Source: Sedimentisphaerales bacterium (GTDB lineage Bacteria > Planctomycetota > Phycisphaerae > Sedimentisphaerales > UBA12454). Taken from it: DNA of 64,000 bases. Shown here in pieces: positions 3,023 through 27,207 of the stretch; the stretch's first letter is position 1; the number at the start of each line of letters is the position of its first letter. The stretch is from NCBI GenBank assembly GCA_016930635.1, contig JAFGGI010000010.1:1-64000 (forward strand), read 5' to 3'. The notes below the pieces were generated by a model. That model did not search any database and was not told where the DNA came from. It was given only the letters and a program-made list of their open reading frames with translations. The translations under genes were made by a program, and so were the position numbers.

Positions 3023-4186
3023 TTGGCTAAAACTGATTCGAATAGAGCAGGCAGGTATATAAGTCAACCCGGCGGCTATAAGGCTTTTATCCCAAATCCA
3101 TTACCACCTGAACCGCCGATAGTGATGGATGAAGAAATTATCAGGATTTTATCATTGGCAGACCAGAATACCGGCAGGCTGGATGGCGCCTGTTATGCTG
3201 TGCCGGATACTCAATTGTTTATTAAAACAATTGCAAAAATGTATGTTCGCAGAGAAGCGGTTGACTCAAGCAAAATTGAAGGTACACGAGCTTCGCTGAT
3301 AGACGCCCTTGAGCTTGAGGCTGGTTTGCCGATAAGCAGCGGTTCTACCGATGCAGATGAAATAAGAAATTACATTGAAGCAATGAATTATGGCTTAAAG
3401 CGGCTGGAAGAATTGCCATTGTCTCTGCGTTTGTTAAGAGAGATTCATAAGAAGTTATTGTTTGGAGTTCGCGGCCAGAACAGATCACCGGGGCAATTCA
3501 GGAAAAGTCAAAATTGGATAGGTCCGCCGGGAAGTATGATCAATACTGCGACATATGTTCCCCCGCCTGTGGGCCAAATGAATGAAGCGCTTGATGCTTT
3601 TGAGAAATTTTTGCACAGGGCAGATGATATTCCTGTATTGATAAAGATAGGTTTATTGCATGCTCAATTTGAGATTATCCATCCATTCCTTGACGGTAAT
3701 GGCAGAATAGGCAGATTGCTGATAACTCTATTTTTGTGCCAGCAGAAAATTTTAGCACAGCCATTGTTATATTTATCTAAAATCCTGTCGCAAAGTCGGC
3801 AGGAATACTATGACTTATTGTTACAGGTAAGCAAAAACGGCAACTGGGAACAATGGCTGAAGTTTTATTTGAGGTCAGTTATTATAGCTGCCTCTGATGC
3901 TTCAGAGAAAATCAGGGAGATTGTTAGCTTACGAAGTCGACATCGTCAATTGATAATAGACAGCATGCAGGGGCGTGCAAAATCTGCACTTATTGTATTG
4001 GAAAATCTTTTTAGTCAGCCGTTGGTTTCAATTGGAAAAGTTATGGAATTGCTTGACGTGTCAAATCAAACCGCCAATAACCTGGTAAGTGATTTTGTTG
4101 AGATGGGCATATTGAAGGAAACCACCGGCAAAAAACGCAATCGCATCTATATGTACAGCGACTATGTGCAGATGTTTATGGATTGA
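3023..4186 (+). CDS. Fic family protein (class II, N-terminal inhibitory motif, C-terminal wHTH-like)
   Basis: HPFLDGNGRIGR Fic motif; inhibitory SSKIEG (S/T-xxx-E-G/N); RBS GGAGG, TTG start. Confidence 0.93.
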   Translation: MAKTDSNRAGRYISQPGGYKAFIPNPLPPEPPIVMDEEIIRILSLADQNTGRLDGACYAVPDTQLFIKTIAKMYVRREAVDSSKIEGTRASLIDALELEAGLPISSGSTDADEIRNYIEAMNYGLKRLEELPLSLRLLREIHKKLLFGVRGQNRSPGQFRKSQNWIGPPGSMINTATYVPPPVGQMNEALDAFEKFLHRADDIPVLIKIGLLHAQFEIIHPFLDGNGRIGRLLITLFLCQQKILAQPLLYLSKILSQSRQEYYDLLLQVSKNGNWEQWLKFYLRSVIIAASDASEKIREIVSLRSRHRQLIIDSMQGRAKSALIVLENLFSQPLVSIGKVMELLDVSNQTANNLVSDFVEMGILKETTGKKRNRIYMYSDYVQMFMD

Positions 4187-21573: not shown

Positions 21574-22013
21574 AAAACAAACCTCCTTGTAATAGAATGA
21601 CGGCTGATTTATTCCTCATAAGGTGCAAACTCTCCTGAAGCTTCGAGCGTTTATTGTCCGGTTAAAACAAGCTTTTGTCAACTATCTAAATCAGTGTTAA
21701 TCCGAGAAATCCGTGGTTAAATATCGTATCTTTTTTGTCCTTTTTGGGTCGAAAACGCGCAAGAAAAAACTTGCGCGCTTTAAAAAAATGAAAAAATTTT
21801 TCTCCCTTTGTAATAAGCACTTAGAATTCCGGACAAAATTTTCTTTTGCACTTTTTTTAAAAAAGCGCGCAGGTTTTTCTCTATATATAGAGAGACATAT
21901 GTTTCTCAAAGGTTGCGTCAGTCGGTTGCGTTGGCGCGACTCGTTACGGTTATGTTGACCGTAAAACGACAAACGAAACAAGATGCGCAACCTAAAAACG
22001 AAAGACGATTTTT

Positions 22014-22262
22014 ATGGGATTTGATTTTACAGATTTTCAGACAGAGGCCCTTAGCCCTGATTTTGTCGATTGGCTCATCGATGAACAGTGGGTTGATATG
22101 CAGACTCATTTCTCCAGGCTGTGGGATTATTATCAAAATCCGATGTACTCAACTAAAGGTCTGTCGGCTGCGGATGCAAAGCTCAATGATTCTGCGCGGA
22201 TTTATTTGCAGGCTCAGGAAATGGGGCTGCCTGCAAGGATCACCGGCATAAAAAGGCCGTAG
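22014..22262 (+). CDS. Small protein of unknown function
   Basis: 82-aa ORF ending at a strong convergent terminator. Confidence 0.55.
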   Translation: MGFDFTDFQTEALSPDFVDWLIDEQWVDMQTHFSRLWDYYQNPMYSTKGLSAADAKLNDSARIYLQAQEMGLPARITGIKRP

Positions 22263-22281
22263 CAAATTACTACGGCCTTTT
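22251..22281. terminator. Bidirectional Rho-independent terminator
   Basis: AAAAGGCCGTAG-caaatta-CTACGGCCTTTT. Confidence 0.85.
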
Positions 22282-22292
22282 GGTTCATCTTT

Positions 22293-22967
22293 TTAAGCTG
22301 TTATTGTTGCACTAATAGTTTCTGACCATGGCCCTTTTTCGCCATTGCTCTTTACCCACCTAAGCATATAATGCGCGGTTTTTCCACCATCACTGCCTCC
22401 GTATTCTACAATGTACGGACTTGCTGTATCCATAGCAACAAAGCTAAGTTCATCAGCGCTGGCCGGCGGTGGATTGCCGGTTGGAGCAACCTTTACCCAT
22501 ATCTCACAGCCCATTATTCCTGCAGGTTTAGCCCGACTTGTCGGCGTTGCCTCATCGCTGAAGCGTATCTCATGACGCAGTCTTTGGCTGGTATCAACCG
22601 CACCTATCGGCCTCGTATCAATATCACCCGTTGACATAGTCCGAACGGTATCACGTATGGTAATTCCAAGCGCAGCACGTTCTGTATCATCAACACTGCT
22701 TGATGCCTGAAGCTGGTTTACTAACTGTCTTACCGCTTTCTCGAGTATATCACGACTATCATCTTTTGCCTGTCGTGCTGATTGAGCTGTGAGCTGGGCG
22801 GTAACATTAGCAGTTAATTTTGCATCAAAATCTGCCTGCCCACCCACTATCGGTAACATTTGAGAAGCTCCTATACCCAACTCTACCAGATGAGCGTTTG
22901 CATAAGTAACAAAGTTACCCACCCATGCTAAAAAATCGTTGTCACCTGCAGGAAGATAATCTGCCAT
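22293..22967 (-). CDS. Unknown protein, helical N-terminus plus possible Fn3/Ig-like C-terminus
   Basis: 'MADYLPAGDNDFLAWVGNFVTYANAHL...' ; C-terminal 'YMLRWVKSNGEKGPWSETISATITA' resembles an Fn3 strand pattern. Confidence 0.65.
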   Translation of the reverse strand: MADYLPAGDNDFLAWVGNFVTYANAHLVELGIGASQMLPIVGGQADFDAKLTANVTAQLTAQSARQAKDDSRDILEKAVRQLVNQLQASSSVDDTERAALGITIRDTVRTMSTGDIDTRPIGAVDTSQRLRHEIRFSDEATPTSRAKPAGIMGCEIWVKVAPTGNPPPASADELSFVAMDTASPYIVEYGGSDGGKTAHYMLRWVKSNGEKGPWSETISATITA

Positions 22968-23023
22968 TGTTCAATCCTTTCAAAAAAGTTGCAATTAGTT
23001 TTTAAACCTTTGTCGGTTTCTTA

Positions 23024-23222
23024 CTCCAGGGAGCAAGCCCTCTACTCCAAAGAGTTAGTCTCCTACTATAGGGAGTCCATCTCTTACTTCGAAGAGTATG
23101 TCACCTGCTCCAAGGAATTTGTATGCCACTCCAGGGAGTCTGTAGCTTACTCCGGGGAGTTTGTTCCTCACTCTGGGGAATCAGTCACTTATTCCGAGGA
23201 ATCGATCTCTCATTCCTGCCAA
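23024..23222. repeat. Tandem 21-bp repeat array, ~9.5 units, with quasi-palindromes
   Basis: Cores at 23024, 23045, 23066, 23087, 23108, 23129, 23150, 23171, 23192 (plus degenerate 23213): ctccagggag, ctccaaagag, ctatagggag, cttcgaagag, ctccaaggaa, ctccagggag, ctccggggag, ctctggggaa, ttccgaggaa. Confidence 0.92.
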
Positions 23223-23624: not shown

Positions 23625-26114
23625 TTAAATCTGTTTTATAGCCCTGCTTAAATATCGTTTATTAACTTTTTTGTCCGCATCAATTACATATTCATCTCTA
23701 GGATATTTTCTTAATGCTTCAGAGGATATTTGACGCAGCTCTTCCCACTCTTCAGATGATATTAAAGATTTACCTGCACGAGTATACCAGCGAGATACAT
23801 GACCTAAATATGCTGTATATGGATATGAATCAGAATCACCTCTATTTTTAATTTGTTCTATTAGGAGTTTGATTCCTTCGTCTGCCTTTTTTTTCATTGC
23901 TCCCGGGTTTCTCGATTTAATCGCTTGTTTCAAATAGAGCATGCCCATTTGATGCCATGTATGATAACCTGTTGGATTTAATGCTAATGATTGGTTTAAG
24001 TAGTTTTCTGCCGTATCTAAATAACCAGCTTTGATATAAACCATCCCGTAATGTAACCAGAAAAGAGAATCACCTGAATAGTGTGGTTGAAGATGCTCGT
24101 ATAGAGCAAATATCATATCTTCGTTTTGTTCTAATTCTTCCCATAAACTTTCCGAATTTATCATTCCTCTGTAGGCTAAATAAGTAGGAGAACGTCGCCG
24201 AATCTCATTTGGAATAATATCTGAAGATATTTGCAAAAGATATTTAGTTATGGCAGCGTATTTAATTTCAATATTAGCTATTTCTGAAGATATCCAATGG
24301 GCTATGAGTCGATGTCTTGGTTTAACGAGACTTGCGTCTTCATTGGCAGGTACTATTATACCTCTTAGTATCTCTTTAATAAGCTGTGTCTTTTTAAAAT
24401 CACCTTCATCTATACATGCTAAGAGATGTCTTCTATACACTCCAGGTGCTCCTTTGTCAACAGCTATACAACATATTAGATAAATCAACTGTGCCTTTTC
24501 TGGCAAATCACTGAATTCACTTTGAAGGATCAAACCAAACCCTTTTCCACTTGTTGCCTCCTTCATAGCAACTAATAATTGCTTTGAAGCTCTATTCATG
24601 AATGCACTAACTTGCTCAGTGTGATTTTTTTGTCTTAGTGCACCTAAAAAGTGGTGTTTTTCTAATTTTTTAATTATTTTTTCGACATCATCTTTACAAA
24701 GATCAGGCATTCTGTTTTCATCAGGATTTAGATCTGCAACAGTATAACTTCTACTATAGTAAGTATTTGTTCTTTCACATAAGATTATAGTTAAGTTTTT
24801 TGTTTTCCGAAAATCATCTTTGGCATCATTGATCGGTCCAAGCTGTCTTCTAAAGTTATCTATGAATAAAAATAGCCTTTTATTTGGGTGATGTTTACAC
24901 AATTCAAAAATTGGAGATAAGTCAATCCTTTCTGTTCCTTTCGCGTAATAGACTATTTCACCATTAGTGGCAATAGTATATGCTACTCTCATTAATGTTG
25001 TGGATTTACCACTGCCCGCAGGCCCATGTAGAATATAACAACGAAAAGAAACATCTGTTTTGTTATATAATTTTTCTACTAATTCCTCATCAATTTTTCG
25101 TGCGGCATCGCGTTCATTTGCTATATCAACCCATGTTGGCTCTGCACCCAAGAAGAAAGATTCACCCTTGACCATAGGGCTTAGTGGAAGATTGTTTGGC
25201 CTAATATGGTCATAGTATCTGAGAAGGAGTTTATATGATTCGGATTTTGTAGGCGAGAATGTGATATATGGAAAAACTTTTGTTCTTACAGCATCTAAAG
25301 CAAGTTCTGAAGTATTTATATTTTTCTTCAGTGATTGGAAAAAGTCACTTGCAGTACATTTAATTGATTCAATATTACGATTAGCAAATGTTCTTTCTCT
25401 TATTGGGCTAATGTTAATGTTGACTATAAATGATTTTGGTCTATACTCACGACTTGTAGAAAATTTTGCTTCCCGAAGATTAAGATAGTGTTGAAACTGT
25501 GGCTCTTCAATATTTGTCCCGACAAATAAAAAGGTGGTTCTATAGAGATCATCTATTAATTGTTGATACCAAGGATTTGGTTTTACTGTTTGTTGTGCAA
25601 AATCGGGCAAAGTAAAAGTAAGCCCTTTGGATAAATGGTCGACATGGCCATGAAGGTGGACACACTGTAATGGATTAAAATGCTGAATTCTTTCTTCTAT
25701 TTCTTCAGGGCATACAATTGTTTTAAGTGCCTGCATATTGTTATGAGAATAGATATTTTGGAGTAGATTATCAATGTTAGTTGTGTATATTTTGTACCAT
25801 GTGACAAGCTTGAGAATATGGTACCATTCCTCAAACTCTTTAATGTTATATTGCTCTTCAAGGAGTGAATTTAATTTTTGACTACCTAAGATTTTCTGTG
25901 CACCTTCATATGCTGTTGGTAATATCTCATTTTGATGTGAATACCCACATTCTTCTATCAGAAGTTTTGCCAATTCGCTACCAAGAGGAGGTGTGACATT
26001 TTTAATGTTTTTTGAATTACTTGAAAAACCAGCCCCAAGAAAAAGAACTACATTTCCTGTTACTAATTGCTTCTTTAGAAAAGGCATACTTCCAGTATTC
26101 CAGTCAAGATCCAT
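23625..26114 (-). CDS. SIR2-like + STAND NTPase + TPR protein (Avs5-like candidate anti-phage NLR)
   Basis: SIR2-like: FLGAGFS, TTNID, HLHGH; P-loop HGPAGSGKST; Walker B LFLFIDNF; TPR-like 'AENYLNQSLALNPTGYHTWHQMGMLYLKQ'. Confidence 0.85.
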   Translation of the reverse strand: MDLDWNTGSMPFLKKQLVTGNVVLFLGAGFSSNSKNIKNVTPPLGSELAKLLIEECGYSHQNEILPTAYEGAQKILGSQKLNSLLEEQYNIKEFEEWYHILKLVTWYKIYTTNIDNLLQNIYSHNNMQALKTIVCPEEIEERIQHFNPLQCVHLHGHVDHLSKGLTFTLPDFAQQTVKPNPWYQQLIDDLYRTTFLFVGTNIEEPQFQHYLNLREAKFSTSREYRPKSFIVNINISPIRERTFANRNIESIKCTASDFFQSLKKNINTSELALDAVRTKVFPYITFSPTKSESYKLLLRYYDHIRPNNLPLSPMVKGESFFLGAEPTWVDIANERDAARKIDEELVEKLYNKTDVSFRCYILHGPAGSGKSTTLMRVAYTIATNGEIVYYAKGTERIDLSPIFELCKHHPNKRLFLFIDNFRRQLGPINDAKDDFRKTKNLTIILCERTNTYYSRSYTVADLNPDENRMPDLCKDDVEKIIKKLEKHHFLGALRQKNHTEQVSAFMNRASKQLLVAMKEATSGKGFGLILQSEFSDLPEKAQLIYLICCIAVDKGAPGVYRRHLLACIDEGDFKKTQLIKEILRGIIVPANEDASLVKPRHRLIAHWISSEIANIEIKYAAITKYLLQISSDIIPNEIRRRSPTYLAYRGMINSESLWEELEQNEDMIFALYEHLQPHYSGDSLFWLHYGMVYIKAGYLDTAENYLNQSLALNPTGYHTWHQMGMLYLKQAIKSRNPGAMKKKADEGIKLLIEQIKNRGDSDSYPYTAYLGHVSRWYTRAGKSLISSEEWEELRQISSEALRKYPRDEYVIDADKKVNKRYLSRAIKQI

Positions 26115-26221: not shown

Positions 26222-26773
26222 TTATTCGTCACTCGTCGTTGGTATCTTGTTGCTTGTAACCGGCAGCTTTGCCAGTGTTGCTCGCCTGCGAAAGGCCTTA
26301 ATAACAAAGTACCAGATTGCAGAGGCTATTAGAGAGGCCAAAACACCAAATCCAAAACCGATCCACCTCTCGCGCCAGACTCTGGTTTGTTGCCTCCTTT
26401 CCTGCAACGAAAAGAGTGCTTCGACAACTTCGCGATTGGCCTGGACAACCGGCTCAAGTTCGGTCTGCTCTGTCCGCAGGGAATCGATCTTGGATTGAAA
26501 GTCCTGCACGCGGTCCTTCTGCGAATGAACGAATGCAAGAACTGCCTTTAGTTGCTCTTCGGTTGTCTCAAGCTGAACCAGTTGGGAGTCGAAGTCCGGA
26601 TTCTGATTGCGGAGTTCTGCAAGCTCTGCGTTGCGGTTACGGATGTCTAAGATAGGGACAATCGCACCTAGGGCCATAAAAACCAGCGTGACTACTGCAG
26701 TGGTCTTTGGCCGCTTGGCATAAGCCCTCTTCCATTCTTGGACCATAAAGACTGTCAGGCTGTCAGAAATCAT
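26222..26773 (-). CDS. TM-coiled-coil-TM protein, unknown function
   Basis: Two hydrophobic segments flanking 'ELAELRNQNPDFDSQLVQLETTEEQLKAVL...'. Confidence 0.65.
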   Translation of the reverse strand: MISDSLTVFMVQEWKRAYAKRPKTTAVVTLVFMALGAIVPILDIRNRNAELAELRNQNPDFDSQLVQLETTEEQLKAVLAFVHSQKDRVQDFQSKIDSLRTEQTELEPVVQANREVVEALFSLQERRQQTRVWRERWIGFGFGVLASLIASAIWYFVIKAFRRRATLAKLPVTSNKIPTTSDE

Positions 26774-27207
26774 CCATTATCCTTGTTACCTAACAATAGT
26801 TATACAATTTTACAAAACTTTCAACGGAAACTTCTGGGGATGCATCCACACGTTAATATCTTCCGAGCAATTATTATCTAACAACAAAAGCGTTTTGTCA
26901 ACTATCTATAAAAAGGCTGGCTGTTAACAGGCTTGCTGACGCTTCTGCCGGTAGGTTCATATGTGGCCGGCTGGCGGACTTTATGGCCTTCGCACTACAC
27001 CGAACAGGAATTACAGGCAGAACTTGGAAAAAACCAGAAAAAACAGACATAAAAAGCGAAAAATCTAATCGCCTCAGAAGCGGTTTATTATAGGCCTTTG
27101 CGCCGAGAAAAAGGCATTTTTATTTTTTAAATCGCTCATTTCAGATTAAATGGCACCATTAATAGGTCGATAAAGATTAAGAGATTTACTATGAGGATCT
27201 TGCAGGT

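Follow-up and report, generated by a model that had tools for sequence, protein, structure and literature searches.

A 21-bp palindromic array heads a family of helix–Fn3 genes with defence cargo between co-oriented copies in Planctomycetota

Main finding

A 21-bp palindromic array in the window, by which we mean the whole 64,000-nt stretch of DNA analysed, lies directly upstream of a gene for a predicted helix–Fn3 protein, and arrays of this kind are linked to homologues of that gene. The array stands before the first copy, neighbouring copies are co-oriented, 3′ fragments of the gene are in excess and defence cargo is found between copies. We put at roughly one in two the probability of the following reading: acting in cis at the level of DNA, the array marks the head of a planctomycetotal gene family, and the co-oriented copies of this family flank defence cassettes that can be exchanged. 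A more elaborate version, a cassette system in which the array would head helix–Fn3 direct repeats as a fixed control whilst defence systems are swapped between the repeats, is offered more tentatively.

The array and its units

The window comes from contig C15 of an assembly of 2.45 Mb in 64 contigs, and its array (Table 1) is present as a single copy in its own genome. Units begin at 23023 and every 21 bp thereafter up to 23191, with the decayed tenth at 23212. Self-identity reaches 0.63, 0.61 and 0.60 at lags of 21, 42 and 63 bp, respectively, as against a best value of 0.43, at any lag, in 2000 Markov shuffles. The exact 21-bp spacing claimed in an earlier note on this DNA is thus borne out, as is the placement of the array immediately 5′ of the gene at 22293–22967.

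Each unit comprises the dyad ACTCCnnGGAGT and a 9-bp spacer. The quasi-palindrome described previously stands as a dyad, but not as a perfect one, with all five pairs formed in three of the ten units, four of five in two, three of five in four and two of five in one. Similarly, the C-to-T/G-to-A swap that was said to preserve pairing does so in unit 23191 (ATTCCgaGGAAT) and not elsewhere, with one side altered in units 23107 and 23170; since both sides are swapped only in 23191, the pairing-preserving change rests on one unit. Similarity between units is flat with the distance separating them, which speaks against a single recent tandem duplication, the neutral decay of which had been named among the observations that would overturn the original interpretation.

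Table 1. Features of the window, and cargo at other loci of the gene family
Feature	Position or locus	Strand	Description
Portal-like gene remnant	22011..22256	+	First 82 codons; left edge of replaced stretch; whole in relatives
Hairpin AAAAGGCCGTAG-caaatta-CTACGGCCTTTT	22251..22281	.	Directly past stop codon of Fn3 gene
224-aa gene adjoining array	22293..22967	-	Predicted long helix and C-terminal Fn3 domain
21-bp palindromic array	23023..23222	.	Nine units and decayed tenth
SIR2–nSTAND5 NTPase–TPR protein gene	23625..26114	-	Defence-like; upstream of array, same strand
183-aa ORF	26222..26773	-	Likely membrane segment; inside replaced stretch
Remnant of last gene of relatives' phage-head-like cluster	26915..27040	+	Right edge of replaced stretch
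Cargo	L070, L096		HaeII-type and BsuBI/PstI-type restriction-modification
Cargo	L102		C5 methylase with HNH and Vsr
Cargo	L153		HNH restriction enzyme
Cargo	L160		Type I-E CRISPR-Cas: Cas1, CT1975-like subunit, Cas8e
Cargo	L223		Caspase with ThsB-like TIR
Cargo	L225		ThsB
Cargo	L062 (with DUF3226), L224		OLD-type ATPases
Cargo	L056		Candidate PDC-S48
Cargo	L232		Candidate PDC-S41

Linkage of arrays to the gene family

Going by the matches, the relatives of the assembly are Planctomycetota, mostly Phycisphaerae. About half of 80 named loci have their main upstream repeat period at 21 or 42 bp. Under a stricter rule, by which an array was counted if it lay ≤800 bp upstream of a full-length copy (the array thresholds having been fixed after the first loci had been seen), 32 of 58 full-length copies possess an upstream array and 0 of 53 a downstream one, with control lags returning 0 or 1 of 58 copies by the same rule. 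A further set displays arrays in 8 of 9 copies overall, including 6 of 6 testable full-length copies from outside the class of the window genome. The earlier proposal of a general class of 21-bp palindrome arrays is therefore upheld, and the check that it recommended shows such arrays to be regularly neighboured by genes for homologues of the 22293 protein, with the array on the upstream side. The array period is 21 bp in nearly all loci and 22 bp in a few.

Background array rates, which come from samples, are low in three of the four genomes sampled. No 21-bp array occurs in 343 kb of the window genome outside the window, only one (coding in appearance) in 400 kb of G250, and few in 400 kb of G085, a sample taken in part from gene loci. 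The fourth, G260, is array-rich, with about 11 in 365 kb, and many of its arrays stand apart from the Fn3 gene.

The arrays could be an ordinary satellite, in which 20–22-nt repeats originate and are turned over by slippage in the spacer preceding the gene and are without function for it, the gene itself merely residing in variable defence islands. Such repeats are known to keep their length whilst their sequence changes (PMC8161180), orthologous arrays differ by whole units, and G260 demonstrates arrays without the gene. This explanation is nonetheless unlikely in the face of a strong, one-sided linkage to one gene family that is repeated outside the class, together with the cross-genome consensus described below; neutral slippage would predict neither linkage nor consensus.

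The helix–Fn3 gene family

The gene at 22293–22967 is the founder of the family studied herein, and no family in Pfam, PHROGs or NCBIfam is matched by its product at the cut-off. AlphaFold applied to 47 sequences predicts a long helix followed by an Fn3 sandwich at the C terminus (pLDDT 88, pTM 0.47), and structure searches return Fn3 domains. As neither structure prediction nor structure searches give the fold of a DNA-binding regulator, this candidate role for the product was rejected. Homologues are present in 62 of 298 genomes of the same class, often as multiple copies and fragments, and the family is rare in the phylum beyond it. No conserved neighbour gene was found beside the family, and phage and plasmid records yielded no match; in IMG/VR two contigs match, both in the order array, copy, 2.6–3.5 kb, copy.

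The hairpin that follows the window gene (Table 1) is terminator-like, and is without generality across the family, as no common hairpin was found after the family stop codons (median folding z of −0.3, with 27 % below −2). Likewise rejected was a site for recombination in the 3′ terminal part, because neither synonymous conservation marking such a site nor a common hairpin past the stop was found. Decayed gene copies at L095, L098, L101 and L107 share an in-frame insert (..ASRPRSCDPPPTG..), apparently a short dispersed repeat that has entered the gene.

Gene copies and the cargo between them

Neighbouring family copies are co-oriented in 35 pairs and inverted in none. Fragments of the gene are C-terminal in 40 cases, N-terminal in 7 and internal in 1, although this excess may partly reflect better conservation of the C-terminal end and the C-terminal peptide pattern used for the search. 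Of 59 first or only copies, 40 have an array ahead of them, and of 11 later copies none does (p = 2.5e-5), p-values here being optimistic because the loci are not phylogenetically independent (L034 and L036, for example, are near-identical). By the rule used, 19 of 59 first copies are without an array.

Cargo operons lie between consecutive copies, on either strand. Defence genes were recognised by PADLOC or Pfam in 11 of the 16 inter-copy intervals of 1.5 kb or longer (Table 1) and in 0 of 10 control ORFs, a small control set; the exact defence rate is uncertain because the ORFs were hand-picked from simple ORF calls. Cargo without a PADLOC match includes DUF6338 with DUF4145 (L065, 2062–3717), an unassigned ORF (L066, 2383–3084) and DUF4276 with a second ORF lacking a family (L108, 5432–7170), and it is possible that these three are undescribed defence systems. 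A tape-measure gene is located near family copies in G287 and G193, and no portal gene was found near the other family copies checked. Among the neighbour ORFs of the scanned flanks no integrase was identified by Pfam.

With regard to how such cargo arrives, the array itself might be a docking platform where cassettes would be joined on or swapped, in a role like that of attI in integrons. The array does mark the cluster head, and at L037 and L038 other genes stand between it and the Fn3 gene. We consider this distinctly unlikely, however, given that cargo lies mostly after the first gene copy and not at the array, that the arrays it predicts before later copies are observed in none of the 11, and that no recombinase was found.

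Returning to the array as a cis element heading the family, we infer that a protein binds it, that it governs the first gene and that cargo arrives by a crossover. Each unit would be a dyad-symmetric site for a putative dimeric protein. Two turns of the DNA helix amount to 21 bp, so that with units phased at this distance the dimers could bind side by side on one helix face; from its position upstream of the first gene of the cluster, the array would control that gene. Cargo operons, mostly anti-phage, are flanked by whole copies or 3′ parts of the gene, and would have arrived through a single crossover within the gene, between the resident copy and incoming DNA bearing cargo along with the gene or its 3′ part. 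After such a crossover the resident 5′ end would retain the array, and the displaced downstream copy would be left without one, often being 5′-truncated. This model fits the co-orientation, the 3′-fragment excess and the restriction of arrays to the first copy. Tandem duplication with decay also fits much of the copy pattern. Sitting less well with our reading are the 19 first copies that lack an array, the arrays of G260 that stand apart from the gene, the genes interposed at L037 and L038, the position of the window's defence gene upstream of its array, and the failure to find a recombinase or a common site.

Nature of the shared motif

Rotation alignment of the unit consensuses from 32 arrays yields the degenerate motif nnGGAGYGGATGACnnACTC, with 5.2 bits of shared information; column-permuted controls average 3.0 bits and reach 3.1 at most. 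On leave-one-out assessment 72 % of the 32 arrays fit the motif at p < 0.05, with the window array at p = 0.03. Some kinship in sequence is thus retained among the gene-linked arrays. In G260, loci L133, L138 (7309–8390), L139 and L144 harbour 21- and 22-bp arrays with no Fn3 gene nearby; the L138 arrays match the shared motif and the others in that genome do not. REP and CGTC/GTAG palindromes were searched for as the identity of the arrays, and rejected.

At least 7 of 10 pairs are formed in 47 % of consensuses, compared with 17 % of shuffled consensuses, and contiguous stems exceed the shuffled consensus only slightly. Pairing within the same unit (0.607, versus 0.563 for permuted units) is matched by pairing with adjacent units (0.614) and with units two away (0.628); as other-unit pairing is equally high, the same-unit excess is no evidence of local pairing, and covariation within units was discarded. 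Mismatched pairs across 31 arrays are G-T in 399 cases and A-C in 385, and this equal frequency indicates that pairing is not maintained for RNA. Neither result supports covariation as a mark of RNA pairing. For orientation relative to the gene, the observed value is reached by 3 of 60 random flips, and any preference is at most weak. With no wobble bias and an orientation preference that is weak at most, we read the units as duplex DNA dyad sites, the arrays then being DNA-level sites phased at two helical turns.

The same data bear on the possibility that the array is transcribed as a 5′ leader, forming a row of hairpins that controls the first gene. Whilst the minus strand folds somewhat better than its shuffles (z = −2.2), the lack of any G-T excess over A-C, the absence of an Rfam family above threshold and the promoter-like sites that, read by eye, often lie between array and gene render an RNA hairpin array improbable, and it was rejected. 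Most improbable of all is a coding repeat, in which 21 bp would be seven codons of a heptapeptide-repeat protein: a plus-strand ORF spans the array and open frames number 3.5 in arrays versus 2.6 in column-permuted controls, but several frames are often open on both strands, inspection revealed no peptide common to the array loci, the array ORF is without a family match, and the arrays of L071 have a period of 22 bp.

Replacement of a phage-head-like cluster at the window locus

The window locus is flanked by genes for a rubrerythrin and a response regulator. Three relatives (G006, G009 and G010) have, between these same two genes, a conserved cluster that spans ~10 kb and includes genes resembling those for portal, scaffold and major head proteins. 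In the window this site is filled by the Fn3 gene, the array, the SIR2–nSTAND–TPR gene and the 183-aa ORF, and remnants of the phage-head-like cluster persist at both edges (Table 1), making an assembly artefact less likely despite the draft assembly. The SIR2 domain shows a weak ThsA-like match, and no close match to this gene was found in other family-bearing genomes. Unlike the two-copy clusters, the window has its defence gene upstream of the array and not between two copies. At L254, L255 and L256 the phage-head-like cluster occupies the same site, between rubrerythrin and response regulator; in the three relatives it looks like a domesticated prophage or a gene-transfer-agent-like locus, nearly all of which is gone from the window genome.

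Relation to known systems

Subirana and Messeguer describe bacterial satellites of constant length, 20–22 nt (also 44 nt), that are variable in sequence, intergenic and present as several families per genome, with no gene partner named (PMC8161180). Part of the 21-bp array class is therefore already known. The arrays studied herein are a variant of these satellites, which they resemble in their constant length of ~21 nt, variable unit sequence, intergenic position and occurrence as several families in a genome, but are distinguished by a fixed downstream gene partner, a position at the cluster head and a degenerate dyad motif common across genomes. Constant-length 21-nt satellites thereby gain a consistent gene partner, which makes satellite function testable.

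P2- and P4-like phages and satellites harbour hotspots of antiviral systems (PMC9122126), and the present loci similarly display a fixed frame with variable anti-phage cargo (11 of 16 intervals), some family copies being beside phage genes. Here, however, the frame is built from directly repeated copies of a single gene with a palindrome array in front, and most family copies have no recognised phage neighbour. Integrons provide a further parallel, with a head element followed by co-oriented boundary repeats and exchangeable cargo that includes defence genes; the boundaries here, however, are protein-coding genes lacking a common attC-like hairpin, cargo lies in either orientation, and no integrase was recognised among the neighbour ORFs scanned. 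REP and GTAG- and CGTC-tagged palindromes are also short and imperfect and are known in Planctomycetes (PMC3733652), but REP are dispersed and mostly head-to-head dimers, whilst the arrays here are strictly periodic, direct and at one gene.

The literature searched yielded no account of the gene–array–cassette layout. Copies of a single gene in direct repeat around complete operons (restriction, Thoeris-like, OLD and CRISPR-Cas) may represent a type of defence-island boundary not described before, and the gene family is usable as bait for new defence systems among cargo without a recognised family.

The second array and the Fic gene

The array at 2629 is real, with a 21-bp self-identity of 0.78, and lies off the shared gene-linked motif (p = 0.22, leave-one-out fit). 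In agreement with the earlier note, no sequence kinship between it and the array at 23023 is detectable. The suggestion that the two window arrays represent two cases of one gene-linked class finds no support, as the 2629 array is off-motif and, among 30 loci of Fic-protein homologues, a clear 21-bp array occurs only at the window's own locus. The idea that Fic genes are commonly a second partner of such arrays was accordingly rejected. Between 2629 and 3020, a 21-bp array of TTACTGACAAGTAAGGCCTAT type is followed by irregular TTATTCC...GGAATAA palindromes, directly upstream of the Fic-like gene at 3024. At L196, another Fic homologue locus, a palindromic array with a 41-bp period is situated upstream, and Fic genes may therefore have palindrome arrays of their own kind.
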